A stretch of 46,686 nt of DNA, from positions 1-46,686 of the forward strand of contig JADCJJ010000450.1 of the NCBI GenBank assembly GCA_020247085.1, written 5' to 3'. Every line of letters starts with the position of its first letter. Position 1 is the stretch's first letter. The notes under the pieces were generated by a model. It did no database searches, had not been told where the DNA came from, and worked only from the letters and a program-made list of their open reading frames with translations. Positions 6,102-43,032 of the stretch are shown here, piece by piece. The position numbers were made by a program, and so were the translations under genes. Source of the DNA: Myxococcaceae bacterium (GTDB lineage Bacteria > Myxococcota > Myxococcia > Myxococcales > Myxococcaceae).

Positions 6102-7180
6102 ATGGGCAGACGAGGTCAGCCTCGACGGGAGGCGCTGGCGGCTCGTGCGTGGGCTCCGCCGCGGCGCGCTTGGAGAGGAACTCGCCGGCGAGCACCTCGG
6201 TGGCGCGGCGTCGGAGCGGTCGCGGGGATTGCGCTGGGCAGCATCGGCCACACGGGAAACGGCGCGAGCTTCTCGGGGGGAATGGCGACGATTGGAGCGG
6301 GCAACACGATTCCTGACCCGGCGCAGGTGCACGTCGAGGGGTGGGTGCGGCCGGCCGCGGACGCGGTGAGCGCACCCCGGGTGATTGCGACCAAGCCCGG
6401 GGTGTGGGCGCTCCGGTTCATCGGCGGAACCACCTACGAGGTGCAGTTCGAGGTTCGGCTGCAGAACGGTCAGCTCTGCACGGCGACGTCGTCGACGGCT
6501 GCGATTCCGACGAACACCTACACGCAGGTGCAGGGCTGGTACGACGGGCTCAGCGTCGGCGTGTCGGTAGGAGGGCCGAACAGGCCCGTCGGCGGGTTGA
6601 TGATGCAGCGCGCGCGCTGCGAGAACGGAGTGCTCGCCCAGGTTCCGGGCGGTGCCATCAACCTCGGTGCATCGGCGCCGGCGACAACCCGTACCTGGGG
6701 TTCCTCGACTCGCTTCGAATCCGAAACGTCGTCACGCCGACGTTCGAGAAGAAGGGCATCATCAACATCACCACCCGCGTGAGCGACGCGAGGACGCCTC
6801 TTTCCGACGCACCGTCCATCGTGATGGAGACGTTCACGGTCGACAAGCGGTCGCCGACGTCATTCCTGCTCATCGACGGCACCATCTCGGGTTGGGGGGC
6901 GTACTCAGGCGACATGCAACAGGGCTGGCGGTTCGGGTCCGCGCCCGAGGTGCTCGCCCAGTCCGTGATGTACGATGCCAGCAATCTTTCGAAAATCTAC
7001 CCCACGAAGGCCGTCCTCTTCTCATCGGTGACCGGGCCGCAGCCCCTGGTGTTCCGCTACTTCACGGCGAATGGTCAGAACGGCGACAGACCATTCATCA
7101 CCTACAACCCCAACTCGTCGGACAACGCCCGGCTCGGGCAGACGCAGTCGGTGTACGTCGTGTACGAAATCGAGCCGTAG
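6102..7180 (+). pseudogene. Frameshifted LamG/concanavalin-A-like lectin protein with a phage-fibre-like C-terminal domain
   Basis: Two reading frames together make one protein. The first (from ~6102, recognisable from ~6230) has LamG hallmarks: GNGASFSGG, then VHVEGWVRP, and strands through VPGGAINLGAS. At about 6666-6682 the match moves to another frame, which continues with DNPYLGFLDSLRIRNVV, the usual LamG end. After that comes a ~125-residue domain (FTVDKRSPTSFLLIDG, QQGWRFGSAPEVLAQ, VFRYFTANGQNGDRP, SVYVVYEIEP) that resembles receptor-binding ends of tail-fibre-like proteins. The N-terminal part of the LamG domain and any signal peptide are not recognisable. Either a real decayed gene or a single-base sequencing error is possible. 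6102 is simply the first ATG in frame. Confidence 0.6.
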
Positions 7181-7189
7181 CGACGACGC

Positions 7190-7501
7190 ATGGTGCGCAA
7201 GGCCCGTCAGGGCGGCCAGGCGCGGCGTTCGGCAGGAGTCCACCCAACCGTGCCCACCGACGAAGAGGCATCGAGGCCGTCTCCGCCGCCGCTGCGTGGG
7301 CCGCTCCAGCGGGTGCACCGCTCCGGCTCGGTGGCTGTCTTCACGCAGCAGGTCCAGGGCGCCGTCGAGGTGACGGCGTGCACGCCCTGGCACGACGGCG
7401 ACGTCATCGCGCGGGAGCCGCGGCCGTGTGAGGGCTGCGGCTCGGTCGCCTTCGAGGGGTGCTGGGTGCAGGATTGCCCGGCCAGGCGCCGGGCGCGCTG
7501 A
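7190..7501 (+). CDS. Small hypothetical protein with a Cys cluster
   Basis: A 103-aa frame from ATG 7190, ten bases after the LamG remnant. The N-terminal half is basic and Pro-rich. The C-terminal half contains CEGCGSVAFEGCWVQDC, four cysteines in CxxC-x7-C-x4-C spacing that could bind a metal or form disulfides. No signal peptide and no family match that I recognise. The opposite strand is also open here, so the call rests on the Cys cluster and position only. Confidence 0.35.
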   Translation: MVRKARQGGQARRSAGVHPTVPTDEEASRPSPPPLRGPLQRVHRSGSVAVFTQQVQGAVEVTACTPWHDGDVIAREPRPCEGCGSVAFEGCWVQDCPARRRAR

Positions 7502-7842
7502 CGGCGTCGCGCCGCCACCGTCGCTCCGAGCGCCCTCGTCCACGGCACGGCCTCCCACTCGGTCTTTCGCTGCGCCACTCGGCGCCCGGCCGGCGCCTTC
7601 ACTGCGCCGTCGATCGAACCCGGGCCGACATGATTCCAGTGGCGGCGACTCATCGACGTCGTGAGACTTGAGTTGTTGGCGAAGAAACAACAGGGGCGAC
7701 CGCTGTTCGTTCGACGGCTTCTTCACGGAAGAGGTGCCTCGTGGGAGCAACGGCCAGGGGGCGACAGCTCGAGCAGCGCGGCGCGTGGCGACGCGACCCT
7801 GGGGGTGTCTGGGTGACGCCGCCCGCAGCGACGTGCCGGACG
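7502..7842. other. Intergenic stretch without a recognisable gene
   Basis: About 340 bases with no convincing coding sequence on either strand. Bases 7660-7740 are less GC-rich and hold a short imperfect inverted repeat (GTTGTT/AACAAC, 7673-7692). They probably contain the promoter of the lipoprotein gene at 7843, but no clear promoter elements could be assigned. Confidence 0.4.
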
Positions 7843-28082: not shown

Positions 28083-29729
28083 ATGACGTCTCGAACCGGT
28101 TGTGCCGTCGCCCGAGGGCCCGTGCTGGCGGTGGCGGCCCTCGTCGCCCTGGCCTGCCCATCGCCGATGGCCACGCTCACGGTCTCGGCCGGGACCCTGC
28201 GCGTCGGCGGAGAGGCCACGGTGACGGTCTCGGCCTTCACCGGAGCGCAGCCAGGGAGCGGCGCCGTCGAGGTGTCCACCTCGCTGGGAGAGCTCGGCGC
28301 GACGAGCGTGCCCCTCGACGACGGGGCCGGGCGCACGACGCTGCGCTGCCCGCGAGCGACGCCCGGCTGCGTCGCCGGCGCCTCCATCACCCTCACCGCG
28401 CGATGGAACAGCCCGCAGGGGTCGCTCACCGAGACGGCGACGGTGCGCGTCTTCGAGGTGAGCGCCGGTGACGGGGGCGGCGGCATGGACGGCGGCGGGC
28501 TCGACGGTGGGGCGCGTGACGGCGGCCCGCTCGACGGGGGCGCGCTCGACGGCGGCCCGGTCGAGGGGATTCTGCTGTTCGACGGAGGGACCCCGCTGCC
28601 CCAGGACCGCGCCCTGGTCATCGGGCGCATCGGGCCTCCGCGCACGCTGGGCTTCTCGGAGCTGACGACGGGCGCGCCCGTGCGCCTGGGGTTCAACGAG
28701 CTGCCGGCGCAGGCGCTCCTGTACGGGGGGCGGCTCGTCTACGTGCGCCGGGGCGTCCTCGCCGCGTGGACCGAGGACTTCGCCGACGCTGGAGGAGAGG
28801 CCGCCGACGGTGGAGCGCCGGACGGTGGCGAGGCCGACGGGGGCGAGCTGGACGCGGGCGCGCTCGACGGCGGTGGGCCAGACGGCGGGTCCCTGGACAG
28901 CGGCATGTCGTTCGGGCCCTTCCCGTTGTTCAACCCCGAGGGGAACGACCCGGTCATCGCGACGTGTTCGGGGGTCTTCAGCGCTCCGGACGCTGGGGTG
29001 CTGCGAATGGTGTTGCCGACGCCGGGGGGGGGGGTGTGGCTCGGCTGCAGCGAGACGCCGACGGGCCCGGTTCGGTTGCTCGCGAAGGGCAGCCGCCGGT
29101 TGCCCATCGACCCAGCGGACCCCCTCGTGCCGCTAGCGGGCGAAGAGCAGTCCATTCTCGGGGTGGTGGACTTCGCCGACGCCGGGAACGAAGTGGTGAT
29201 GTTCTCGCAGAGCGCGAGTTCGCGCCTGCGGTTCGACGTGCAGGGCCGCGCCCACGTTCGCTCGGCGACGCGCGCCGTCCCTGGGGGCTACGAGTTTCTC
29301 GTGTTCGACGCGGCGAACGACCGGTGTTGGTTGGGCAGCCTGGACGTGATGGGTCGCTACAGCGAGGTCCTGTTGCCTGCGAAGATGTTCGGAGGGCGCT
29401 GCCAGGGCGCTCGGTTCGACGGGCCCCGCGACGCTCTGCTCGCCATCGGCCTCGAGGTGTTCGACGCTGGCCTCGAATCGGTGGTGCTCGAGCTGGCCCT
29501 CGTGCGCTCCGTCGACGGAGGCGCGCGGGACGGTGGGACGAGCGACGGCGGGGCCGGTGATGGCGGCTCGGTTGACGCGGGCCGCGCCGACGCCGGCCCC
29601 ACCGAGCTGCTGCCCGTCGTCCGGTTCCGCGCCGGGCCACCCTCGAACTTCGGCAGCAGCCCGCCGGCGCTCTCCATCGACCTCGGGTCGCTCGTCGGCG
29701 ACGGGGGCCCCACGTTCATCACGCCGTGA
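28083..29729 (+). CDS. Large DGG-rich lipoprotein with a poly-G tract
   Basis: A 548-aa protein from ATG 28083, 10 bp after HPr and preceded by GGGAG. The signal PVLAVAALVALAC places the lipidated Cys at residue 25. Residues ~25-130 are a beta-rich, possibly Ig-like domain (ATLTVSAGTLRVGGEATVTV). Two spacers rich in DGG/DAG (~132-162 and ~240-285) surround an internal beta segment. The C-terminal part has a further DGG spacer (~483-505) and no recognised domain. Eleven consecutive G bases (29024-29034) lie in the frame of PTPGGGVWL, a possible slippage site. Function unknown; probably surface-exposed. Confidence 0.75.
   Translation: MTSRTGCAVARGPVLAVAALVALACPSPMATLTVSAGTLRVGGEATVTVSAFTGAQPGSGAVEVSTSLGELGATSVPLDDGAGRTTLRCPRATPGCVAGASITLTARWNSPQGSLTETATVRVFEVSAGDGGGGMDGGGLDGGARDGGPLDGGALDGGPVEGILLFDGGTPLPQDRALVIGRIGPPRTLGFSELTTGAPVRLGFNELPAQALLYGGRLVYVRRGVLAAWTEDFADAGGEAADGGAPDGGEADGGELDAGALDGGGPDGGSLDSGMSFGPFPLFNPEGNDPVIATCSGVFSAPDAGVLRMVLPTPGGGVWLGCSETPTGPVRLLAKGSRRLPIDPADPLVPLAGEEQSILGVVDFADAGNEVVMFSQSASSRLRFDVQGRAHVRSATRAVPGGYEFLVFDAANDRCWLGSLDVMGRYSEVLLPAKMFGGRCQGARFDGPRDALLAIGLEVFDAGLESVVLELALVRSVDGGARDGGTSDGGAGDGGSVDAGRADAGPTELLPVVRFRAGPPSNFGSSPPALSIDLGSLVGDGGPTFITP
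29024..29034 (+). repeat. Homopolymer of eleven G inside the DGG-rich lipoprotein
   Basis: The bases GGGGGGGGGGG begin in codon CCG and run through three Gly codons into a Val codon. A one-base slip would move the remaining ~235 codons out of frame. The longest other G run I noticed in a gene is seven (37940-37946). Confidence 0.85.
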
Positions 29730-30354: not shown

Positions 30355-33300
30355 ATGAACCAACGCCGAACCCTGCTGGTCGCCGTCCTGAGCATCGCTG
30401 CCGTGGCCAGTGCGCAAGAGGCACGCCCCCGGGTGATGGTGATTCTCGACTCCTCGCGTTCGATGCTCGAGCCGACCAACACCGATTGGCCGCTGACGCA
30501 GATGAACAACTCGGGTGGCGACTGGGATCCGACCTCGCCGGGTACGCCCTGCAACAACAAGTTCTGCACGGCCAAGCGCGTCGCCGACTCGGTGATTCCG
30601 GACTTCACCGGCGAGGCCCGCATCGGCCTCACCACGTACTACCAGTTCATCCTGCGAGCCGACCGGCCGAGCACGGTCGAGACGACGTGCTTCTACGACA
30701 TCTTCTCGCCCCCGAACCGGGTGCGGCGGTTCTCGAGCGCGGTCGACCTCACGGGCAGCGGGCAGACCGTCTGCTCGCCGGCGACGTGTGACGGCAGCGG
30801 CAACTGCGCGCTGTCGGCGTGTGCCTCGGGCGTCGGCAACCCGCGCCACGTCAACTTCCCCGATAGCGTGGGCCAGGGCACCGGGGCGAGCCTCGACAGC
30901 ACGTGCGCCTTCCCTTCGGCGTACGCGCGCCCGCTGCTGCCGAACGGCCCCGGGAGCGTGCCGGACTGCTCCGGTGACCGCTGCTACACGCTGACGAAGA
31001 TTGGCGCGACGCCGGGCGACGCTGGCACGACGTGCACCGTGTACACCGCGCCGTCGATGGCAGCGCCGCGGAGCATCACCGTCGCGACGGCGGCCACGCT
31101 CGGCTGCGTCCCCGCCAACTACACCGAGGTGCTGCCGGGGTCGATGCCACTGACCAACGTTCAGCTGAACGTGCCGCTGGGCAACACGACCTGCATCACG
31201 GGGAGCCAGATGCCGCAGGCGCCGGTTGCGAACCCGATGGGGCCCCCGTCCATCGCAGGGTTGACGGCGAACCCGACCCTCGGCACCACGGCAGGTTCGT
31301 ACAACGGCAACGCGTCGGGCCTGAGGTGCACGAGCGAGGCGCCGTGCGACCTGTACCTGGCCTCGTCGGCCCCGACGGCGGTCATGAGCACCCGCCGGCA
31401 CTGGTTCGCCATGTTCAATGACACGTGGGTCCTGCTCCCTGACGCCGGGAGCCCGAACGCGGACCCCCCGCCGCCATCACTCGACACCTACACCGTGTCG
31501 CAGAGCATCGGCGGCATGGCCTACGTGTCTGACTTCTTCAGGTCCAACGTCGGTTCCGGGTCACGCCCCTTCCGGAACGGCTTGTCCACGGTGTGCGCCC
31601 CGACGGGCCGGTACTCGACCGGTAACCTCGAACAGTTCGGTGTCGCCAACGCCATCGGCCAGCTCGCCGCCTCCAGCACCCTGGACGCGGGCGTGGGCTC
31701 GGCGAACGAGTCGCCGGGGCGCTCGGGCTCGCCGGTGAACACCCTCAATTGCACCGGGCCCTTCCCCTGCGACGTCACGCTCCGGAACCAGGTGGATGTC
31801 GATACGCCCGTCGCCGGGCCCACCATCTATGACACGTCGAAGCTGCCGACGTCTCCGCCGCACTGGTTCGTCAGCGACGCTGGGAGCCTGGTCAACTACA
31901 CGGGCCGACTGGCGAGCCCCTCGCTCACGAGCTGCCCCGGGTCGTTCACCTGGAGCTCGAGCGCAACGGTGAACCCGGCAGCTGGGTTTCTGTGGAAGAC
32001 GGGAGAGACGCCACCGGGCAACTGCTCGGCCTGGGGGCCCTGCCAGTTCGACTTCGTGGGCTCGCTCCCGGTGTCGGCCCCGACGGGTACCTGCAATGAC
32101 GTGGTGCGATTCTCTGCGTATTCGTCGCTCCCGACCTGCTCGTTCAACGGGAAGACGTACAACGCCATCGACGCGGGGTCGCCGCCCAGCACCGTGAGCG
32201 ACGGTCCAGACATGGCCAACCCGTGGCGGGTGGTGGCCCGCATCCCCGAGGCGGCGTCGTGCGCGACTGGGACGTTCAGCCGCAACAGCATTGCCAACGG
32301 GCAGGTCGTGACTGGGGCGGCCGGCGAGACCACCATCAACTGTGCCACTGGCGTGTTCGGGCCCGGGTGCACGAACGTTCCGGGTGGGCAGGTGAGCGCC
32401 ACCGACCCCATCACCCTCACGTATGTCAGCGCACCGCTCGTCGGCGGGGCGGCGAGCGGGACGTCGGTCAACCACCTCGCGCCGCCCACGTCGTTCACCG
32501 GCTCGCCGTCGAGCGTCGTCGACCACCCGTCGTTTGGCCCGAGGAACCTCGGCAATCCCGCGCCGAACACCCAGCCCGAGTTCGTGCCGCTGACCGTGGC
32601 CGACGGCGTCTTCACCGTCGCGGGCGCTTCCATCACCGGGGCGACCTGCAACGTGGGCGAGACCGTCATGTCGAACAGCTCAATCCTTTGCTCCGGGGTG
32701 ACGCCCGTGGGCAGCCCGGCCCGGTGCAGCTTGAGGACGGTGGGTTGGAGCATGACCGGGACCGGGTGTGGCTCGGAGGGCGGGCCCTGCCGCCGGTGCA
32801 TGTATCAGCCGCTCCTCGCCACCTGGACCTCAGGCTGGAAGGACTGCACGTACACCGCCAAGCGCTACAACTACACCGTCGATGGCAGCGCGACCGAGTG
32901 CACCTACAGTCGGCGTGAGTGGGCAACCCGGTACAACGTGAGAACGTACAACTGTGAGTGGGAAATCGGCGCGCGGCGCTACGACTTCAACAGGCCGCAG
33001 CGTCAGTACTGCGAGTACTTCGCCGTGCCATCCGTGGTGCGAGCGACGCTCCCGACGTACAACTACGAATACCTGACGAAGGGCACTGAGCTCATCGGCC
33101 GCGGTAGCAAGCCGGCCGGCGCGGGGAACCTGTGCTCGTCTCCGTGGACGAGCGCGAACGCCTTCGGCATGGCGTGCCCAGAGACCATCGCGGGGTGCGC
33201 GGGTGTCTCCCCGGGCACGACGGTCGCGAACCTGACGACGTTGTTGAGTCAGAGCACCTGCCGGTTGACCTATGGCGGCTCGAAGTTCTCGCTCTCGTAC

Positions 33301-36300
33301 ACCAAGCCGTCCGAGGCCGGGTTCCACCACGGCCGAACCCAGGCGTACATGACGGATGCTGACTTCGCAGCCATCGACCAGTCGCATCGGGCCTGTGAGC
33401 TGGCCAGCAATGGAATTGGAACCCCGGTGACGCTGCAGAACGCGTCGGCGACGTGGTCCCAGGGTGGCTGGCCCGTTTCGAACTCCAGGGACGGAGACAG
33501 GACCGGGTCCAACGGCTGGGCCATGCACGACCAATACGGCAATACGGTGTCACCCTCGGGTCCCAGCGGTACGGTCATTCAGGAGGCCACGTTCGAGACT
33601 GGCGCGAATACGCCGGCGTACGCGACGGGCACGAGGTTTGTGCTGTTGGTGCATCAGATCTCGCCTCACAACCAGCATAACCTCGGGCGTTTTCGGCTCT
33701 CGGTCACGACTTCGGACCGGGCTACCTTCGCGAACTGCGCTGCGGGCACGGTTGGCACATGCGCTCCCTCCAGCGTCAGAGGAGGCGGTTCGTCGTGGAC
33801 GACGGTCGTGCCCTCGGCCGTCTCGAGCGGTGGCGCGACGATGACACCACAACCGGACGGCTCGATCCTCGTGACGGGGGTCAACCCAGCCACCGACGTG
33901 TACACGCTGACCTTCGAGACGCCCCTGACGGGCATCACCGGCTGGCGAATCGAGCTCATGAAGGACACGTCGCTGGCCAACGGCGGTCCGGGGAGAGCCG
34001 GAAACGGGAACTTCGTCGTGAACGAGTTCGAGCTGTTCCAGTCCGACCGTGGTTCACCGCCGCCGGTGAGCCCCGACACCTACCGCGCCCGGAACGACAC
34101 CATCCAGACGCGCGGCTTCTGCTCGGCGAGCGGTGACATGTCGGTCTCGGTCCGCCGGCTCATCTCGGACTACTTCGACCCGAACCCGGCCACCAACGCG
34201 AACAACCTGAGCATCTACACGGCCCCAGCCCAGTTCCCCGCGCCGTGGGTCGTGAGCTGGAACAACAGCGAGCGGAAGACCCAGGGTTTCAGCGCCGCCT
34301 CAGATGCGGGCGTCGAGGCCGTGACGGGCGCGCTCCCAAGCCGGACGACATTCGTCCCCATTCCCGACGACTCGGTGTACAGCATTGAGACGCAGCGACT
34401 GGCATTGCGTAGCGCGCTGAGGAAGTGCGTGCTCCCCAGTGAGGTCGACCTCGGTCCCGACGGCGGGTTGGCCGGTGGCGTGTGCGTCGCCGACGAGCGC
34501 GTGCGGAACAGCTCGGGTGCGCAGGTCGTCGGTGAGACGCCGCTCTACGGCTCTCTGTACAGCACGTACCAGTACCTCTTGAAGAAGTGGGAGACCGACG
34601 GTGTCGACGAGAAGCAGTGCCGTCCGTACAACATCGTGCTCCTTACCGACGGTATCGAGCAGACGCCGGCTGGCTTCACGGTCGGTGGTGCGTCGGTCGC
34701 GACGAGCGTGCAAGGGCTGGTCGGTAGTTTCCGCAACTTGAGCCCTGGCCCCAAGACCCGCCCCGACGTGAAGACGTACATCATCGCGCTCGGCACCGGT
34801 GCCGCCGGGAACTCCCAGCTCACCGACGTCGCCCAGGCCGGTGGCACCGAGCGCGCCTTCGACGCGACTGACTACAACCAACTCCTGACGGCGCTCCAGG
34901 GCATCTTCACCTCGATGACGGCGGGCCGGCTCTCACGGTCGCGGCCGGCGATTGGCACCGACGGCACCCGCATCTACACGACCGAGTTCCTCAAGCCCTC
35001 GGGCAGCGGTGACGGCGGCAGCAGCGCGCTCGATTGGTCAGGGTACCTGTCGTCGTTCATCATCAGCCCGCTGGGCGACGCGCCGACGTTGGCCTGGGAG
35101 CACTCGGCCAAGCTGAACAACGCCGCTCACCCGGCCCGCACCGTCGTCGCGGCCCTCTGCAACAACCCCGGCGCAGTTCGGTGCAGCAACGCCGACCGGG
35201 TCGTGGTGCCGTTCGCGACGTCGAGCCCCCTGCTCATGAACCAGCTCGACGACAGCCCCGACTTCGCCGCCGGCGCGGACGCGGGCCAGGTCGTCACCTT
35301 CCTCCTGAACCCCGGCGCGCCCAGCGGCAGCGGTGCGCCGTTCCTGGGGTCGACCGCGCTGCGCACCAGCCGCCTCGGGCCCATCTCGCACTCCGCGCCT
35401 GTCGTCGTGGGACGGTCGCCGTATGACCGCGAATACGGTGGCAGCACCGAGGCGCAGCGCAGTCAGTATGCCGCGTTCCAGGCCACGACGAACGGTGACG
35501 GTGGCCGCCCGACGGTCGTGCTCGTCGAGGGGAACGACGGCATGCTCCACGCCGTGCGCGAGCGCACTGGTGACCCGGCCTGCTCGACGTCTGAGACCGG
35601 CGTCGGGTGCCCCAACGGCCACGAGGCGTGGTCGCTCGTGCCCGGCTCGATGAAGTCGAAGATGCTGGGCGTCGGGCAGCCGAACCTGGTGACGCAGCTC
35701 TTCCGCCTGATGCAGGGCGGGTGGTCGGCCAACTACCTCAACAACACGGTGTCGGTGGCCGACGTCTGCGCCACGGGCTCAGGCTCGGCCAACGACTGCG
35801 TCGCGAGTGACTGGAGGACCATCGCCATCGTCACCATGCGCGAGGGTGGGCGAGGCATGTCTGCCTACGACATCACGTCGGGGGCGGCGCCCAACACGGC
35901 CCGCTTCCTCTGGGACTACGCCGAGGACGACCTCGGCCTTACGTACAGCATTCCGGCCATCGGCCGCGTGAGCGACGGCGCTGAGGAGCGGTTCGTCGCC
36001 GTCTTTGGCGGTGGCGTCGACGACCCGGCGACGGCTGACGTCGAGGGCCGGCGCATCTACGTCCTCAACGCCGTCAACGGGCAGCTCATTCGCGAGTACG
36101 ACAAGTTCCTCCGGGGCTCGACCTCGGTGTCGTTGAGCGAGGGCGTTGTGGCCAGGCCGTCGCTGCACCGCCGGCCGGGGGCCAACTTCTCGTTCGCGTC
36201 GAGCGGCTTCGTCGCGGCAGGGCCGTCGGTGCTGGCGATGCGCTTCGCGAAGGCGAACGGCACCCTCACCACCGACAGCAACCAATGGCTGCCCCAGGAG

Positions 36301-37074
36301 CTGTTCGACCCGACCTCGGGCCGGAGCGCAAGGCCTGCGACCGACACCACCGTCACCACGACCCCGGTGAGGCGGGTCGAGCTCGTCGACGCGGGCAGCC
36401 CCGACGCCGGGGTCGCGCCCAGCTACCAGCTCGTCGTGGACTCATCGCTGCCGCTGCCGTCAGCGCCGCCGATTCTCGCCCGCCCACGGCTCGCGCCGGT
36501 GCTGGTGCCCTCGGGCGATACCATCGACCTCTTCGTCGGCACGGGCGACGTTCGGACTCCCATCGACCCGGCCTCCGAGTTCCGGAACGGCAACTACTTC
36601 TACGCCATTCACGACTTCAACCTGCAGGACACCTCGGCGACCGAGAACGACGGCAGGGCAATGTGGGTCGTGAAGTTCCCGAAGCTGGGCACTGCGCCGG
36701 CACCAGAGCGGTTCGAGCAGGTGGTGAGCGAGCCTGGCATCATCTCGGGCTGCGTCATCGTCGCGACGTACACCACGCCGACGGTGGCGACGACCTGCTC
36801 GGGCGGTGGCGACGCGCGGTTGTACGGTTTCCGCCCACGCGACGGTGAGCTGCAGCCGTGTCTCGTCTACGGGGCCGGGCCGCTCGCCGGTCAGACGACG
36901 CCGGTCCTCGACATGCCGGGCTCGGGGATTCCGTCCGACCTCGTCTGCGTGGGCAACAGCTGCTACCTCAAGACGGAGCGAGAGACGACCTCCGGCGGCG
37001 GCAACCTGCGGCAGATTGGCGTTCGCGTGCCGCCCAAGCCCGGGTCGGTGCGCAGCTACCGGAGGATCAAGTGA
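30355..37074 (+). CDS. pilY1: Giant PilY1-type type IV pilus tip adhesin with a split vWA domain
   Basis: A 2239-aa exported protein. Signal peptide TLLVAVLSIAAVASAQ (~5-21). The von Willebrand A domain begins at RVMVILDSSRSM (metal-site DxSxS, ~27-38) but its later motifs, GETPLYGSL (Thr) and YNIVLLTDG (Asp), come at ~1395 and ~1424. The ~1,350 residues between form an insertion rich in Cys and Ser/Thr. It contains a repeated C(T/E)(Y/W) module (~822-905) and a ~220-residue domain (~1020-1235) with GWAMHDQYG, HNLGRFRLSVT and NGGPGRAGNGNFVVNEFEL, a pattern known from galactose-binding-like domains of planctomycete cytochrome proteins. The C-terminal ~700 residues are the PilC/PilY1 propeller (VVLVEGNDGMLHAVRERTG). 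The usual Ca-binding DxDxN loop is not obvious. Four minor pilins follow, so it should cap the pilus and bind surfaces. Confidence 0.82.
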   Translation: MNQRRTLLVAVLSIAAVASAQEARPRVMVILDSSRSMLEPTNTDWPLTQMNNSGGDWDPTSPGTPCNNKFCTAKRVADSVIPDFTGEARIGLTTYYQFILRADRPSTVETTCFYDIFSPPNRVRRFSSAVDLTGSGQTVCSPATCDGSGNCALSACASGVGNPRHVNFPDSVGQGTGASLDSTCAFPSAYARPLLPNGPGSVPDCSGDRCYTLTKIGATPGDAGTTCTVYTAPSMAAPRSITVATAATLGCVPANYTEVLPGSMPLTNVQLNVPLGNTTCITGSQMPQAPVANPMGPPSIAGLTANPTLGTTAGSYNGNASGLRCTSEAPCDLYLASSAPTAVMSTRRHWFAMFNDTWVLLPDAGSPNADPPPPSLDTYTVSQSIGGMAYVSDFFRSNVGSGSRPFRNGLSTVCAPTGRYSTGNLEQFGVANAIGQLAASSTLDAGVGSANESPGRSGSPVNTLNCTGPFPCDVTLRNQVDVDTPVAGPTIYDTSKLPTSPPHWFVSDAGSLVNYTGRLASPSLTSCPGSFTWSSSATVNPAAGFLWKTGETPPGNCSAWGPCQFDFVGSLPVSAPTGTCNDVVRFSAYSSLPTCSFNGKTYNAIDAGSPPSTVSDGPDMANPWRVVARIPEAASCATGTFSRNSIANGQVVTGAAGETTINCATGVFGPGCTNVPGGQVSATDPITLTYVSAPLVGGAASGTSVNHLAPPTSFTGSPSSVVDHPSFGPRNLGNPAPNTQPEFVPLTVADGVFTVAGASITGATCNVGETVMSNSSILCSGVTPVGSPARCSLRTVGWSMTGTGCGSEGGPCRRCMYQPLLATWTSGWKDCTYTAKRYNYTVDGSATECTYSRREWATRYNVRTYNCEWEIGARRYDFNRPQRQYCEYFAVPSVVRATLPTYNYEYLTKGTELIGRGSKPAGAGNLCSSPWTSANAFGMACPETIAGCAGVSPGTTVANLTTLLSQSTCRLTYGGSKFSLSYTKPSEAGFHHGRTQAYMTDADFAAIDQSHRACELASNGIGTPVTLQNASATWSQGGWPVSNSRDGDRTGSNGWAMHDQYGNTVSPSGPSGTVIQEATFETGANTPAYATGTRFVLLVHQISPHNQHNLGRFRLSVTTSDRATFANCAAGTVGTCAPSSVRGGGSSWTTVVPSAVSSGGATMTPQPDGSILVTGVNPATDVYTLTFETPLTGITGWRIELMKDTSLANGGPGRAGNGNFVVNEFELFQSDRGSPPPVSPDTYRARNDTIQTRGFCSASGDMSVSVRRLISDYFDPNPATNANNLSIYTAPAQFPAPWVVSWNNSERKTQGFSAASDAGVEAVTGALPSRTTFVPIPDDSVYSIETQRLALRSALRKCVLPSEVDLGPDGGLAGGVCVADERVRNSSGAQVVGETPLYGSLYSTYQYLLKKWETDGVDEKQCRPYNIVLLTDGIEQTPAGFTVGGASVATSVQGLVGSFRNLSPGPKTRPDVKTYIIALGTGAAGNSQLTDVAQAGGTERAFDATDYNQLLTALQGIFTSMTAGRLSRSRPAIGTDGTRIYTTEFLKPSGSGDGGSSALDWSGYLSSFIISPLGDAPTLAWEHSAKLNNAAHPARTVVAALCNNPGAVRCSNADRVVVPFATSSPLLMNQLDDSPDFAAGADAGQVVTFLLNPGAPSGSGAPFLGSTALRTSRLGPISHSAPVVVGRSPYDREYGGSTEAQRSQYAAFQATTNGDGGRPTVVLVEGNDGMLHAVRERTGDPACSTSETGVGCPNGHEAWSLVPGSMKSKMLGVGQPNLVTQLFRLMQGGWSANYLNNTVSVADVCATGSGSANDCVASDWRTIAIVTMREGGRGMSAYDITSGAAPNTARFLWDYAEDDLGLTYSIPAIGRVSDGAEERFVAVFGGGVDDPATADVEGRRIYVLNAVNGQLIREYDKFLRGSTSVSLSEGVVARPSLHRRPGANFSFASSGFVAAGPSVLAMRFAKANGTLTTDSNQWLPQELFDPTSGRSARPATDTTVTTTPVRRVELVDAGSPDAGVAPSYQLVVDSSLPLPSAPPILARPRLAPVLVPSGDTIDLFVGTGDVRTPIDPASEFRNGNYFYAIHDFNLQDTSATENDGRAMWVVKFPKLGTAPAPERFEQVVSEPGIISGCVIVATYTTPTVATTCSGGGDARLYGFRPRDGELQPCLVYGAGPLAGQTTPVLDMPGSGIPSDLVCVGNSCYLKTERETTSGGGNLRQIGVRVPPKPGSVRSYRRIK

Positions 37075-37712
37075 AGCTGCGGCGTGGGCCGAGGCGGGGT
37101 GTCACCCTCGTCGAGCTGATGGTGGTGGTCGCCATCGCTGGCATCCTGGCGGCGATGAGCGCCTACAGCTTCCGGGCGGTCAACGAGCTCGGCCGCCTCA
37201 ACGGTGCGGCCTCGACCCTCGCGACGGTGCTGACGAACACCCGCGTGCGCGCCATCACCGAGCGGTGCACCTACGTCGTTCAAGTCAGCGGGCCTGCCTA
37301 TGCGCCGGTGGCGGGTACCGTCGGTCAGGGGGGCTCGCTGACGCCGAACGCCGTCACCGTGTTTCGAAAGCGGGACTGCAACTCGGCCCAGGGGTTCTTC
37401 GAGACCGCCGCGGCGCCGTTGTGGCCCGACCGTCGCGTCGAGGACTACAACCTGAGCGAATTCGGGGTGATGGTGCAGCTGCCAGCGGCCGTCATCCCTA
37501 GCGGCGAGCTGGGGGACCGCGCGGTCTCCATCGCGTACACGGCCAACGGTCAGCGCCTCATCTTTCGCGGTGACCAGAACGGGGCGTTCGTAGACAGCGG
37601 CTTCGGCCTGGCACTGCCGCTCGGGCTGACGATTCGGCCCGCAGGAATGCCCACGTCGCCGACGCTGCGCGCCGTCAACGTCCCTGGCGCAGGCGCCGCG
37701 GAGGCGCCATGA
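37071..37712 (+). CDS. fimU: Minor pilin, FimU/GspH-like
   Basis: A 213-aa prepilin. GTG 37071 overlaps the PilY1 stop (GTGA) and gives a class III signal: a short basic leader then RRG|VTLVELMVVVAIAGIL, with Glu at +5. The globular domain has an early Cys pair (ERCTYVVQV, KRDCNSAQG). It falls in the GspH/FimU family by size and N-terminal helix. FimU links the pilus shaft to the PilV-PilW-PilX-PilY1 tip complex. The gene name is by position and family, as sequence alone does not separate FimU from GspH. Confidence 0.8.
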   Translation: MKLRRGPRRGVTLVELMVVVAIAGILAAMSAYSFRAVNELGRLNGAASTLATVLTNTRVRAITERCTYVVQVSGPAYAPVAGTVGQGGSLTPNAVTVFRKRDCNSAQGFFETAAAPLWPDRRVEDYNLSEFGVMVQLPAAVIPSGELGDRAVSIAYTANGQRLIFRGDQNGAFVDSGFGLALPLGLTIRPAGMPTSPTLRAVNVPGAGAAEAP

Positions 37713-38134
37713 GGACCCGCCGGGCGAGGGGTACGACGCTGCTCGAGACGATGATGGCCGGCGCGGTGCTCATGCTGGGCCTGGTGGGCGTCGTGCAGCT
37801 CATCATCAGCAGCATGAACCAGTTCGGGAACTCGACGGCGCGCATGACCGGCCAGGTCGCGAACGCCGACGCCATGGCCGACGTGCTGTCGATGCCGTTC
37901 CAGGCCTACTCGACGTTTCCCCTGGGCTCGGTCATCGATGGGGGGGTCACGACGGACGCGAGCGGCAGGCAGTACGCCCGCACCATCACCATCGCCGCCG
38001 CGGGCGATGGCGGTGTCGCCGCGAGGTTGGTCACCGTTGAGACGCGCTGGCGCGAGAACCTCGGCCCGGCGACCGTCAACCGCGTCGCGCGCTCGTCCAT
38101 CTTCATCTCGGAGCTTCCCGATGCGGGCCCCTGA
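37709..38134 (+). CDS. pilV: Minor pilin, PilV-like
   Basis: A 141-aa prepilin from ATG 37709, overlapping the fimU stop (ATGA). Leader RRARG|TTLLETMMAGAVLMLG with Glu at +5 before a hydrophobic helix. The remainder has no Cys and is shorter than typical PilV. A run of seven G occurs at 37940-37946. The start of the next gene overlaps its end by 14 bp. Confidence 0.75.
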   Translation: MRTRRARGTTLLETMMAGAVLMLGLVGVVQLIISSMNQFGNSTARMTGQVANADAMADVLSMPFQAYSTFPLGSVIDGGVTTDASGRQYARTITIAAAGDGGVAARLVTVETRWRENLGPATVNRVARSSIFISELPDAGP

Positions 38135-39338
38135 CCGCCGACGTGGTCTCACGCTCATCGAGTTGATGGTGTCGCTCGCCGTCACCGCCATCATCCTCGC
38201 GGCGGTGATGTCCATCGTCGTCACCATCACCCGGCAGCGGCGGGTGTCGAGCAACATCGTCGATACCCGGGTCAATGGCCGCGTGGCCCTGTCGATGATG
38301 CAGTTCGACGCCGTCAACGCCGGGTACCGCTTTGGGACGCCGGCCCTGGCCGCCTGGGTGACGCAGAACGTCACCACCGCGAACATCACGGCCCTCGGGT
38401 TGGACAACTGCGGCATGGCGGCGGGCTCGGGGTGGCAGGTCGTGCCCGGGACGGACGTCATCGAGTTCCGCGAGGGGGCCGCGGGCCGGGTGCCGGGCAC
38501 GGTGCTCGCCGGCATGGTGGGCTGCAGCTCGCCCGGCGCCTGCGTCGTGCCGCTGAGCAGCACCGGTGGCAACCCGTTCAACTCCACAGCCGAAGGCAAC
38601 GACAGTGTCGTCATCTTCAGCAACGGCACGACGGGCTGCGCGGGCCGGTTGACGACGAGCGTCGGCGACAGTGGTAACCGTCCGACGGTGGCCTTGCTGG
38701 CGCCCAGCCTTCGGCAGAACGCCACCACCTCGACCTACCCGGGCACTGGCGTCAACGCCTGCCCGTCGCAGTTCATGTCGGTGACGGCGCTGGCCTCGGT
38801 GACGCGCTATTTCGTCTGCAGGCCGACGGCGACCACCCCGACGCTGCGGCCGGCGCTCTTCCGGCAGCGCCTCGGGGGCACGCTGGCAGTGCTCACGCCG
38901 ACGGAGCGCGTGCAGGACGGGGTCGAGGACGTGCAGGTCGCGCCCGTTCTGGCGAACTTCATGGCAGGCGCGTCACCCGTCGGTGGGAGCGGCTGCACGG
39001 GTACCGGCGCCGCGTCTCGCTGCGTGTGCAACCTCACGCCGACGACCGGCTGCACCGGCTACGATCCGATCCCCGACGTCCTCGACCCGAACGGGAGCGC
39101 GGAGCAACGGAGCCCGATGCTGCTGCGCGCGCTCCGGGTCGCCGTCACCACCATCACCACCCGGCCTCGGGGCACCGCTGCCGAGGGGCCGCCTGCCGTG
39201 CGCCCCGCCTCGTTCGACCACGCCGCCGGCGCGGTGGGCCACATCGCCGACCAGGCCATCGTCGGAGCCGAGAACAACACCCGCGCCGTCGTCGAGGCAA
39301 CGTTCCTGCTGCAGAACACCACCCTGGTGACGCCATGA
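38121..39338 (+). CDS. pilW: Minor pilin, PilW-like
   Basis: A 405-aa prepilin from ATG 38121. Leader DRRRG|LTLIELMVSLAVTAIIL with Glu at +5, a PulJ/PilW-type hydrophobic helix and a large beta-rich body. Several Cys pairs (VGCSSPGACV, GCTGTGAASRCVCN) suggest disulfides. At ~405 residues it is large for PilW, in line with the oversized PilY1 partner. It sits between PilV and PilX in the normal order of the tip-priming complex. Confidence 0.8.
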   Translation: MRAPDRRRGLTLIELMVSLAVTAIILAAVMSIVVTITRQRRVSSNIVDTRVNGRVALSMMQFDAVNAGYRFGTPALAAWVTQNVTTANITALGLDNCGMAAGSGWQVVPGTDVIEFREGAAGRVPGTVLAGMVGCSSPGACVVPLSSTGGNPFNSTAEGNDSVVIFSNGTTGCAGRLTTSVGDSGNRPTVALLAPSLRQNATTSTYPGTGVNACPSQFMSVTALASVTRYFVCRPTATTPTLRPALFRQRLGGTLAVLTPTERVQDGVEDVQVAPVLANFMAGASPVGGSGCTGTGAASRCVCNLTPTTGCTGYDPIPDVLDPNGSAEQRSPMLLRALRVAVTTITTRPRGTAAEGPPAVRPASFDHAAGAVGHIADQAIVGAENNTRAVVEATFLLQNTTLVTP

Positions 39339-39922
39339 CGCCCCTTCAGCCTCGTCGCCATCGCCAGACGCGAGGCGTGGCCATGATTGCCGCGCTGACG
39401 TGCCTGCTCCTCGTCTCGGTGCTGGCCGCCGGGCTCTTCCTTCAGACGCGCGAGGCCGGTGCGCTCAACCGCGTCGTCTCGGCGCAGGCCGTCGCCGCGG
39501 CCAACGCGGAGATGGGGCTCCAGGAGGCCGTCCGCCGGGTGCGGTCGGCGCAGTTCGACGTCGCCACGCTCGCCGGTACCTGCACGCCGGCCCAGGTCGA
39601 CCTGCTCACCGTCAACCCGCCGAACGAGGCGCCGCCTGCTGGCGCCTGCAACTCGTTCATCAACGTCGGCCCCATCGTCGGTGTCGGGAACGACCCGATG
39701 CAGGGTGGTGGGCTGCTTTACCGCTTCATCGTCTACAAGCCGAACCCTGCGGGCGACCTCGAGCTGGCCGCCAAGAACGACCGCATCACCGTGCGCGTCA
39801 TCGGCTACTTCGGGCAGGCGGTCGACGCGCTGGGCGTCATCACCACCATCCTCGAGACCGAGGTCGAGACGGGCATCACCCTGACACCGCCCTGCCCGGC
39901 CGGTGACTACGGCTGTCAATGA
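39335..39922 (+). CDS. pilX: Minor pilin, PilX-like
   Basis: A 195-aa protein overlapping the pilW stop (ATGA). The leader RQTRG|VAMIAALTCLLLVSVLAAG lacks Glu at position +5, as is common for PilX/GspK-type pilins that sit at the very tip. Body with Cys at GTCTPAQV, GACNSF and the C-terminal PPCPAGDYGCQ. Together with the other three minor pilins it should prime pilus assembly and carry PilY1. Confidence 0.75.
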   Translation: MTPLQPRRHRQTRGVAMIAALTCLLLVSVLAAGLFLQTREAGALNRVVSAQAVAAANAEMGLQEAVRRVRSAQFDVATLAGTCTPAQVDLLTVNPPNEAPPAGACNSFINVGPIVGVGNDPMQGGGLLYRFIVYKPNPAGDLELAAKNDRITVRVIGYFGQAVDALGVITTILETEVETGITLTPPCPAGDYGCQ

Positions 39923-41040
39923 GCGCGGTCGTCCGCACCGGGCCGGTGGCCCCCGGGGCGTGGGTGGCCTGTGCGCTGCTAGTGGCCGGCGGCGCCTGCC
40001 GCGAGGCCCCGAGAGCGTCACCGCCCCCGGTTCCGGCTGCTCCGCAGGCCCCGCAGATTCCAACGGTCATCACCGAGAAGGACACGTACACGCACGACGG
40101 GGGCGTGTCGGGCCCGGGCTGGCGCCTCGGCTTGAGCCGGCGCTGGGACGTGGTGCGGCCCGAGGTGGCCCGCCTCGTCAAGCCCGCGGCGAGCGCCTGG
40201 ACCGTCGACCCCGACGGGCCCGAGCACCTCACGGTGACGTGCCGCGCGAAGGCCGGCCCGCTGTCGGAGGAGCGGCCGGGGGCGCGCGTCGAGGCGCTCG
40301 AGGGGCCCTGGCTCGAGGGGCGCCTCGCGCGCTTCTCGGCGGCCGACGGGGCGCACACCCAGGCCCGCTTCCGGCTCCTCACCCAGACGTGCGACGTCGA
40401 GGTGGTGGCGCCCGCGCAGCGCGACGGCGCTCGGGCCGTCGAGGCGGTGTCACGCTTCGAGGGCGACAAGCCGCGCCTCGTCGCGGCGCTCCTCGACCTG
40501 GCCCGCTTCCTGCGCACGAGTGACGCGGCCCAGGCGCGCCTCGGGCTCTACGCCGACGCGGGGTACGGAGACCTGGGCGGGGCGCTCCTGATGGAGAACG
40601 CGCTGGCGAGGTTGCCCGTGGCGCGCCTCACCGAGCGCTTCCAGCTGCGGGTCGAGCTGCTGGCGTCGCTGCCGCCGCGCGAGTGCGGCGAGCTGGTGCG
40701 CGCCTGGCGCGATGCCTCGCCCGAGGTGCTCGACCGCCTCCCCGAGGCGAGCGCGGTGCGGTGGGTCGAGCTGACGCGCGAGGCGATGGGGCTGGCGCTG
40801 GCGGCGTCGGGCCCACCGGTGATGCCGACGGCTGCCGAGGTCGAGGCGGCCGTGCGCGCGCTGGTGGCGACGGACGTCGAGACGGAGGAGGCGGTGAAGG
40901 TGCTGCAGCAACCGCAGGCGGCCTCGAGCGAGCTCATCTGCGAGGCCGAGAAGGTGCGGCTGCGCGCGATGCTGTCGCGCCCCGAGGCCGAGCGCCTGGC
41001 GTTGATGCGCAGCCTCGTGGGCACGGCCACCCTACGGTGA
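39919..41040 (+). CDS. Lipoprotein at the end of the minor pilin operon
   Basis: A 373-aa protein from ATG 39919, overlapping the pilX stop (ATGA). The signal GAWVACALLVAGGAC gives a lipidated Cys near residue 27. A Pro/Ala linker and a ~300-residue mainly helical domain follow (ALLDLARFLRTSDAAQARLG, LLMENALARL, EEAVKVLQQPQAASSELICE). I do not recognise the family. Tight coupling suggests a role in pilus-tip assembly or secretion, perhaps at the outer membrane. Its end overlaps the convergent DinG gene by 9 bp. Confidence 0.7.
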   Translation: MSAVVRTGPVAPGAWVACALLVAGGACREAPRASPPPVPAAPQAPQIPTVITEKDTYTHDGGVSGPGWRLGLSRRWDVVRPEVARLVKPAASAWTVDPDGPEHLTVTCRAKAGPLSEERPGARVEALEGPWLEGRLARFSAADGAHTQARFRLLTQTCDVEVVAPAQRDGARAVEAVSRFEGDKPRLVAALLDLARFLRTSDAAQARLGLYADAGYGDLGGALLMENALARLPVARLTERFQLRVELLASLPPRECGELVRAWRDASPEVLDRLPEASAVRWVELTREAMGLALAASGPPVMPTAAEVEAAVRALVATDVETEEAVKVLQQPQAASSELICEAEKVRLRAMLSRPEAERLALMRSLVGTATLR

Positions 41041-43032
41041 CGCCGGCGCCCACCAGGCCCTCACGTCGGCGAGGCGGGTGAAGCGGCGGGCCGGCGGCAG
41101 GCTGTCGAGCAGCGCCCGGCCGTAGCGCTTCGTCAAGACGCGCGCGTCGCCGAGGGCGACGATGCCGCGGTCGCTGCGCGTGCGGATGAGGCGGCCGAAG
41201 CCCTGTCGCAGCGTCAGCGCGGCGCGCGGCACCTGGTACTCGTCGAAGGGGTTGCCGCCGGCCTCGCGCACCGCCTCGATGCGCGCCGCCTGGAGCGGCT
41301 CTCCCGGTGGCGAGAAGGGCACCTTGTCCATCACTACGAGGGAGAGGGCGTCTCCCGGCACGTCGACGCCCTCCCAGAAGCTGTGCGAGGCGAAGAGGAC
41401 GGACGGCTGCTGCTTGAAGCGCTCCAGCAGCGCGCCGCGGGGCGCCTCGCCCTGCTTCAGCACCGGCACGGCGACGTGGGGCGACACCAGCGTGTACACC
41501 TCGTCGAGGTGGCGCAGGCTGGTGCACAGCACGAAGGCCCGGCCGCCGGTGAGGCGAATGAGGCGCAGCACCTCGCGGGAGAACTCGAGCGTGAAGCCCT
41601 CGGCGTTCGGCTCGGGCAGGTGCCGCGGCACGTAGAGGGCGGCCTGGGTTTCGTAGTCGAAGGGCGAGTCCACCGAGACGGTAGCGGTGGCCTGCGGCGA
41701 CAGGCCGAAGCGACGGGCGACGAAGTCGAAGCTCTTGTGCGCGCGCCCCGTTGGCGATGTCAGCGTGGCCGAGGTGAAGACGACGGTCTTCGTCTCTTCG
41801 TAGAGGAAGCGCGCGAGGCTCTCGCCGACGTCGATGGGGGCGGCCCTGAGGGCCAGGCCGCGGCCCTTCGCCTCGGCCCAGTACACCTGCCCGGCGTCGT
41901 CGGCCTGCAGGACGTGCTCGAGGGCGGCGGCGCTGTCGACGGCGCGGCGGTGCAGCGCCCCCACGTCGGGGTCGTCGTCGGCCACCAACGCGGCGAGCGC
42001 CGCCAGCGTCTCGAGCACCGCGGCGGCCGAGGGGCGCAGGGCGTCGAGGAGCGCCTCGGAGAGGGTGGTGTCGGCGCCGCCGCGCCGGCCGCCGCCCTCG
42101 TCGAAGAGGGGGCCCTGCGACAGGTGGAGCGACAGCTCGCGGAAGAGGGCGTCGCTGCGGCTGCGGAGGGTGACGGAGAGGGCGGCGAGGTGGCTCGCGC
42201 GGCCGTCGGTGACGGGCAGCACGCCCAGCAGGTCTTGTGCGAGGCCCGTCAGCCGGCCCGACGACACCGAGACGCCGAAGTACTCGGTGGCCACGTCTTC
42301 GAGGGCGTGGGCCTCGTCGAACACCACCGCGTCGTACGGCGGGAGGATGCCAAGGGGCTCCTCGCCGCCGCGTGCGCGCAAGGCCAGGTCGGAGAAGAAG
42401 AGGGCGTGGTTGACGACGATGACGTCGACGTCGGCGGCGGCGCGGCGCCCGCGCGTGACGAAGCACGACTCGTAGAGGGGGCACTTGCCGCCGAGGCAGG
42501 CGTCGCTGGTGGTGGTGACGAGGGGCCAGCCGCTCCACGTCTCGGGCACGGACGTCTCGACGCGGTCGCCCGTCTCGGTGGAGTGGGCCCAGCGGCGGAA
42601 GTCCTCCCAGCGCGCGGCGTCTTCGGGCGTGGCGAACGAGGGGCTCTGGTCGAACGCCTCGAAGCGCTGCGCGCAGAGGTAGTTCGAGCGCCCCTTGAGG
42701 AGCGCGGCGGTGAAGGGCAGCCCGACGACGTCGCGCAGCAGGGGAATGTCCTTGGTGAAGACCTGGTCCTGCAGGGTGCGGGTGGCGGTCGAGACGACGA
42801 CGCGCTGGCCCGACAGCGCCGCGGGGACGAGGTAGGCGAGCGTCTTCCCGGTGCCGGTGCCGGCCTCGGCGAGCAGCGGCGTCTTCGTCTCGAGGGCCAG
42901 CGCCACCGCGCGCGCCATGTCGAGCTGCGCGGGGCGGTGCTCGTAGCCCTCGAGCACCGCCGACAACGCCCCGGACGGCCCGAGGATGCCGTCGACCGTC
43001 GCCTGATGGAGCTCGCGCCTGCGCGACGACAT
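41032..43032 (-). CDS. dinG: DinG/YoaA-type Fe-S DNA helicase (superfamily 2)
   Basis: A 666-aa protein from ATG 43032. Walker A AEAGTGTGKTLAYL (Lys63), VVVSTATRTLQDQ (motif Ia) and VVFDEAHAL (DEAH, 239-242) are followed by the C-terminal motor with QGFGRLIRTRSDRG (motif VI). Cys120, Cys179, Cys184 and Cys190 (SDACLGGKCPLYESC) are placed as the iron-sulfur cluster ligands of XPD-like helicases. It unwinds DNA or RNA-DNA hybrids 5' to 3'. No exonuclease domain is attached. The paralog YoaA cannot be excluded. Convergent with the pilus operon. Confidence 0.88.
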   Translation of the reverse strand: MSSRRRELHQATVDGILGPSGALSAVLEGYEHRPAQLDMARAVALALETKTPLLAEAGTGTGKTLAYLVPAALSGQRVVVSTATRTLQDQVFTKDIPLLRDVVGLPFTAALLKGRSNYLCAQRFEAFDQSPSFATPEDAARWEDFRRWAHSTETGDRVETSVPETWSGWPLVTTTSDACLGGKCPLYESCFVTRGRRAAADVDVIVVNHALFFSDLALRARGGEEPLGILPPYDAVVFDEAHALEDVATEYFGVSVSSGRLTGLAQDLLGVLPVTDGRASHLAALSVTLRSRSDALFRELSLHLSQGPLFDEGGGRRGGADTTLSEALLDALRPSAAAVLETLAALAALVADDDPDVGALHRRAVDSAAALEHVLQADDAGQVYWAEAKGRGLALRAAPIDVGESLARFLYEETKTVVFTSATLTSPTGRAHKSFDFVARRFGLSPQATATVSVDSPFDYETQAALYVPRHLPEPNAEGFTLEFSREVLRLIRLTGGRAFVLCTSLRHLDEVYTLVSPHVAVPVLKQGEAPRGALLERFKQQPSVLFASHSFWEGVDVPGDALSLVVMDKVPFSPPGEPLQAARIEAVREAGGNPFDEYQVPRAALTLRQGFGRLIRTRSDRGIVALGDARVLTKRYGRALLDSLPPARRFTRLADVRAWWAPASP

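Follow-up and report, generated by a model that had tools for sequence, protein, structure and literature searches.

The PilY1 protein encoded in the window, i.e., the whole stretch of 46,686 nucleotides of Myxococcaceae DNA analysed here, contains a vWA domain split by an insert of 1290 residues, and its predicted metal site (MIDAS) is complete and conserved. The insert itself hosts a module of 217 residues which, judging from sequence comparison, is a recent gain of a mobile domain in the window's lineage. The discontinuous vWA domain is probably the mechanical platform of a pilus-tip PilY1, in which a hosted head contacts the surface and specificities are obtained via domains dropped into the MIDAS loops.

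The initial annotation assigned the open reading frame 30355-37074 to PilY1, and this assignment holds: (i) its C-terminal propeller matches PF05567 (E = 4.8e-10, 39.3 bits vs. a cut-off of 28.1) and is the sole domain detected by Pfam in the full-length protein; (ii) a profile of its C-terminal part retrieves the crystal structure of P. aeruginosa PilY1, 3HX6 (E = 5e-35); (iii) it is followed by four pilin-like genes with overlapping stops and starts (GTGA at 37071 for the pilY1 stop and the first pilin start), N_methyl being recognised by Pfam in two of the four. Linkage of PilY1 genes to minor pilins is usual, not universal, and it is found in the window. The protein is read from its sequence as the PilY1 of a type IVa pilus, with a predicted location at the tip and a predicted role in assembly. 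It is the sole PF05567 match in its assembly (G000; 7.36 Mb, 641 contigs), and a plasmid search gives a single weak propeller match, in Legionella. The features of the cluster are the following:

30355..37074, + strand: pilY1 gene (2239 aa, ATG start, 58 Cys; PF05567 and 3HX6 profile match)
30355..30414, + strand: probable signal peptide, aa 1-20 (read from the sequence: short basic start, hydrophobic stretch, ASA before Q21)
35374..36096, + strand: PilY1 beta-propeller core, aa 1674-1914 (PF05567)
37071..37712, + strand: minor pilin, presumably FimU-like (N_methyl PF07963; GTG start overlapping the pilY1 stop)
37709..38134, + strand: probable minor pilin PilV (position, 4-nt overlap, GTTLLETMM N-terminus; no Pfam match)
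38124..39338, + strand: minor pilin, presumably PilW-like (N_methyl PF07963; start approximate)
39335..39922, + strand: probable minor pilin PilX (position, overlap, hydrophobic N-terminus; no Pfam match)

A motif scan of the whole protein finds none of the canonical calcium motifs 1, 2 and 3, nor RGD. These calcium motifs are common in PilY1 proteins and not defining, several clades being devoid of all three according to the main text of PMC13190605. Upstream of the cluster, 28084-29729 encodes a predicted secreted protein with many Asp-Gly-Gly runs and no Pfam match; convergent with the cluster, a DinG-like helicase (Helicase_C_2, DEAD) is encoded at 41032-43032 on the minus strand.

The vWA domain was analysed by means of an alignment of 14 proteins, i.e., the window PilY1 and 13 relatives, 12 of which cover the DxSxS region. 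The closest relative (51% identity over the aligned part) is called L051 hereafter. The two halves and their motifs are located as follows:

30421..30666, + strand: first half of the vWA domain (beta1-alpha1-beta2-beta3), aa 23-104 (CglB model match, alignment, residues 1-81 of the L051 model)
30448..30462, + strand: MIDAS DxSxS motif (DSSRS), aa 32-36 (invariant in the 12 relatives covering the site)
30667..34536, + strand: insert splitting the vWA domain, aa 105-1394, 1290 aa (alignments; in the L051 model, the interval that follows beta3 and precedes the MIDAS Thr)
34372..34929, + strand: second half of the vWA domain (alpha2/alpha3-beta4-beta5-beta6-alpha6), aa 1340-1525 (Pfam VWA, alignments, about 1022-1200 of the L051 model)
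34537..34539, + strand: MIDAS Thr1395, in GETPL (invariant in 14 of 14 aligned rows)
34648..34650, + strand: MIDAS Asp1432, in LLTDG (invariant in 14 of 14 aligned rows)

D32, S34 and S36 are thus separated by about 1,360 residues from T1395 and by about 1,400 from D1432 (D-to-D span of 1400 aa), in agreement with the positions first noticed (about 31-35, 1395 and 1430). The D, S and S residues occupy the same columns in 12/12 covering relatives, and T and D in 13/13. Since all five residues are invariant in the relatives covering them, the split motifs are not due to chance. The predicted MIDAS of the window PilY1 has the full DxSxS...T...D set. Two PilY1s of another family, of about 2100 aa and 59 Cys (L048 1257-7547 and L049 1124-7459), have no N-terminal DxSxS and represent another, distinct type of giant PilY1.

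Each half has its own, partial, match. The first half (aa 10-97) is matched by the NCBIfam model NF033757 of CglB, a vWA adhesin, with E = 7e-8 and 31.8 bits vs. a cut-off of 200 bits; this match, found in 5 of the 14 aligned proteins, is limited to the first half, and its score places the window PilY1 outside CglB. The likeness to CglB, the gliding-motility adhesin of Myxococcus, is that of the first-half sequence, CglB being presumably a lipoprotein with neither propeller nor pilus link. For the second half, the match to Pfam VWA is limited to positions 104-169 of 174 (E = 0.017), and the same second-half-only match is observed in the PilY1s of Desulfarculaceae, Desulfobacterales and Acidobacteria.

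The only other DxSxS of the window PilY1, DMSVS at aa 1261, is at the canonical distance from T1395 and D1432. It could suggest two separate domains, i.e., DSSRS in a small N-terminal domain and a complete vWA in aa 1240-1560 with DMSVS as its MIDAS. DMSVS is however unique to the window among the 14 aligned proteins (absent in 13/13 relatives) and has no hydrophobic beta1-like strand before it, whereas DSSRS is invariant; moreover, the Pfam VWA match of the C half is confined to the second half of that model, and the modelled fold of L051 draws residues from both ends. DMSVS was rejected as an alternative MIDAS, and a two-domain arrangement is extremely improbable.

The reading of a single, discontinuous domain was examined on a structure model of L051 (aa 66-1265, exactly 1200 residues including both vWA halves and the whole insert; AF2, 14 sequences). 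In this model, the first half comprises beta1 (4-9), alpha1 (46-61), beta2 (66-70) and beta3 (74-81). After the insert come two helices (1022-1032 and 1074-1091), beta4 (1102-1108) and beta5 (1149-1156), and the C-terminal end consists of beta6 (1179-1181) and alpha6 (1184-1199). Most vWA blocks have a pLDDT of 70-88 (residues 1-81 about 64-87 by block) and the insert is mostly well below, i.e., of low confidence (mean pLDDT 53.8, pTM 0.37).

The best whole-vWA match given by VIA-align has a Z of 17.4 at 2.4-2.5 A, with 171-179 residues aligned over the range 1-1200. The matches (Z 15-17.4), i.e., 3ibs, 4jdu, CMG2, VWF A2, S. sanguinis PilB and Mfa5, are complete vWA domains with about 170-197 residues aligned. 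The C half from the MIDAS Thr on has about 131 residues, which is too short, and both halves must therefore contribute to these matches. Foldseek gives no significant match with the 1200-residue model, which is perhaps expected for one domain interrupted by about 900 residues. The two distant halves are thus predicted, on the relative L051 and not on the window protein itself, to form one Rossmann-like vWA fold. The initial annotation had anticipated one vWA built from both parts with an intact MIDAS, which agrees with the L051 model; the opposite outcome it had named, DSSRS in a small domain and a complete vWA in the C part, is not seen there.

The split as such is not special to the window PilY1, contrary to what was first supposed, since most PilY1s are split, with smaller inserts. 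The D-to-D spans, which are motif-based with relatives taken from a genome scan and of which single values can be off where motifs degenerate, are 106-204 in plain vWA proteins, 274-340 in beta/gamma-proteobacterial PilY1, 418-423 in Acidobacteria PilY1, 522-738 in Desulfobacterota PilY1, 732-983 in several Myxococcaceae-type MAGs and 1080-1220 in the window's own lineage, compared with 1400 in the window PilY1; in most phyla they are about 275-420. As the split is general in PilY1 and the spans are graded, the window PilY1 stands at the far end of a series. In a quick tree, it adjoins L051 (63% identity; SH-aLRT 99). The PilY1 of P. aeruginosa (vWA aa 48-368; PMC8806160) also has a tip MIDAS vWA and is implicated in surface sensing. 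In this protein and in beta/gamma-proteobacterial PilY1 the vWA is already enlarged, yet the span is about four times smaller than in the window, and no Cys-x-Tyr repeat (see below) is found.

An insertion of about 1,350 residues carrying its own domains had been proposed from the motifs. The size is close, the alignment giving about 1290 aa from beta3 to the MIDAS Thr; own units are indeed present, but most of the insert is, by sequence, an older cysteine-rich region common to the whole lineage. Its core is:

32719..33159, + strand: Cys-x-Tyr repeat region (Cys at aa 815, 831, 849, 867 and 886)

Long-form PilY1s have a Cys-x-aromatic motif every 16-20 residues or so, 3-7 times. Of the 145 genomes of the order, 15, all from the window's family, have matches to a profile of the Cys-x-Tyr region; these are PilY1-type frames plus two of about 1020 aa that probably belong to such genes. 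A second copy of the region lies in a 1020-aa frame of genome G136 (G136:C105:3175-3618), possibly a second PilY1. The region has no match in Pfam/NCBIfam scans nor in phmmer/hmmsearch against PDB sequences; with the insert pieces and the 14 aligned proteins, Pfam and NCBIfam give nothing for the insert beyond a SUEL match in one relative (L066) and the CglB half-match. The Cys-x-Tyr repeat of long PilY1 forms is undescribed. Disulfides probably brace the cysteine-rich region into a rigid stalk or head, and the strands of the model point to a possible stalk.

The insert might also be mainly a spacer or shield, i.e., a stalk braced by disulfides that makes the tip longer or masks the MIDAS, with ligand binding by the MIDAS itself, as is usual for vWA adhesins. 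Conservation within the insert is highest in the cysteine-rich core, much of the remainder is variable and of low confidence, and the full invariance of the MIDAS suggests that the metal site is still in use, all of which would suit a spacer. A pure spacer nevertheless leaves unexplained the gain of a whole-domain module in one lineage and the lectin match in another, and we regard it as unlikely. A vWA platform carrying a hosted head is preferred, and the module concerned is:

33409..34059, + strand: window-only module inside the insert, aa 1019-1235, 217 aa (alignment gap, homologous domains, GC3)

This module faces a gap in 13/13 relatives (1-4 residues in this block, 26 in one), including the sister L051. 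Its GC3 is 0.81, compared with an expectation of 0.90 based on the remainder of pilY1 (z = -5.0); the stretch of 217 codons with the lowest GC3 in the gene begins at codon 1001. Domains 41-43% identical to it, with the same boundaries, occur in two small lipoprotein-like ORFs of another genus of Myxococcaceae (G051/G053), of which they are the only recognisable domain, at the end and behind a glycine-rich linker. Genes with this layout are L137 3096-4307 and L138 3183-4028, and the linker of L137 has very long Gly-Gly-Ile/Val repeats. A single gain in the window's lineage is preferred to losses in all the other ones, being by far the simpler account.

Since the genome is in 641 contigs and no close relative has the module, one could suspect a chimera in the draft assembly. 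The module is however in frame, it has the same ends as the homologous domain elsewhere and its flanks are still alignable; the frame is open over 2239 codons and the rest of the insert is common to 13 relatives. A chimera is thus very improbable, and a recent gain is retained.

The module has no significant match in Pfam or, with phmmer/hmmsearch, in PDB sequences, and an AF2 model of it alone, from a single sequence, has a pLDDT of 35. The central region of a PSCyt1-DUF1549-DUF1553 protein (L144 2031-5288), of planctomycete type and of a different protein context, weakly matches the module halves in swapped order (E = 7e-4 to 7e-3); a circular permutation is possible, and this match hints at a wider family of binding-type domains. 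No copy of the module was found in 150 genomes of the phylum of L080.

An independent, parallel case is provided by the L066 PilY1 (Myxococcales MAG), in which a SUEL-lectin match (7148-7600, aa 74-220; E = 1.7e-6, 28.8 bits, slightly under the Pfam curated cut-off of 31.4) comes after DTSRSM, in the vWA beta1-alpha1 loop, i.e., another MIDAS-face loop than that of the window insert. The idea of an exchangeable module, as in the initial annotation, is retained insofar as the module occurs outside PilY1 elsewhere; the pattern is one of accretion at different loops rather than of cassette exchange at one site.

The closest described proteins are M. xanthus PilY1.3 and clades 1.3/1.5/1.6/1.7 (Mahanta et al. 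2026, PMC13190605), which, from the main text, share with the window PilY1 the C-terminal propeller, the N-terminal vWFA, the minor-pilin cluster and a high cysteine content (highest median count of 41 vs. 58 in the window), together with a large size in clades 1.6/1.7. The split vWA, the Cys-x-Tyr repeat and hosted modules are unmentioned in that main text, and the word «insertion» is absent from it; the split may be visible, though unnamed, in the AlphaFold models of that study. According to PMC9109919, PMC8806160 and PMC13190605, pilus formation, motility or surface signalling depends on the vWA part of PilY1 in M. xanthus and Pseudomonas. The vWA domains of RrgA (pneumococcal pilus) and PilB (Streptococcus sanguinis T4P) have two arms flanking the MIDAS (PMC8179133). 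They resemble the window PilY1 in being pilus vWA domains whose loops around the MIDAS carry insertions (PilB 7b7p matches the L051 model with a Z of 16.1), and differ from it by unrelated host proteins, short arms and the absence of nested whole domains. Pilus-tip vWA domains with loop insertions are thus already known, and the accreted nested modules found here are a new variation.

The following mechanism can be proposed. As in the rest of the family, the C-terminal propeller would dock on the minor pilins encoded just downstream and prime the pilus. The N-terminal vWA domain would be built from beta1-beta3 (aa 23-104) and from a second part (aa 1340-1525) that comprises alpha2 to alpha6 and both the Thr and the Asp of the MIDAS, about 1290 residues looping out between beta3 and this Thr. 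At the pilus tip, it would most likely be a mechanical platform. Contact with the surface (glycan, prey or matrix) would be made by the hosted head, adhesion or ligand binding being presumably carried by this head or by the module. As the insert joins the vWA close to the MIDAS loops at both of its ends, a pull on the head would be passed straight into the vWA. New specificities would arise when whole domains drop into the loops around the MIDAS. It is possible, if somewhat doubtful, that the PilY1 vWA is more generally an open platform for tip specificity by nesting of foreign domains in MIDAS loops, and that the Cys-x-Tyr region is a new disulfide-braced family that carries heads and passes force to the MIDAS.

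The N-terminal diversity of PilY1 is considered to adjust the binding preferences of type IVa pili. Because each vWA half scores weakly alone, domain scanners miss the vWA in such proteins and the split-vWA class is probably under-annotated. The comparison of the window with the sister L051 offers a natural pair, with and without the module, for its effect on pilus binding. A recent module nested in the insert that splits the vWA suggests that pilus tips gain surface-binding heads as domains inside domains. A route to new specificity is thus made visible, in which a whole domain may enter an older insert, itself splitting a force-sensing vWA, and leave the metal site unbroken.
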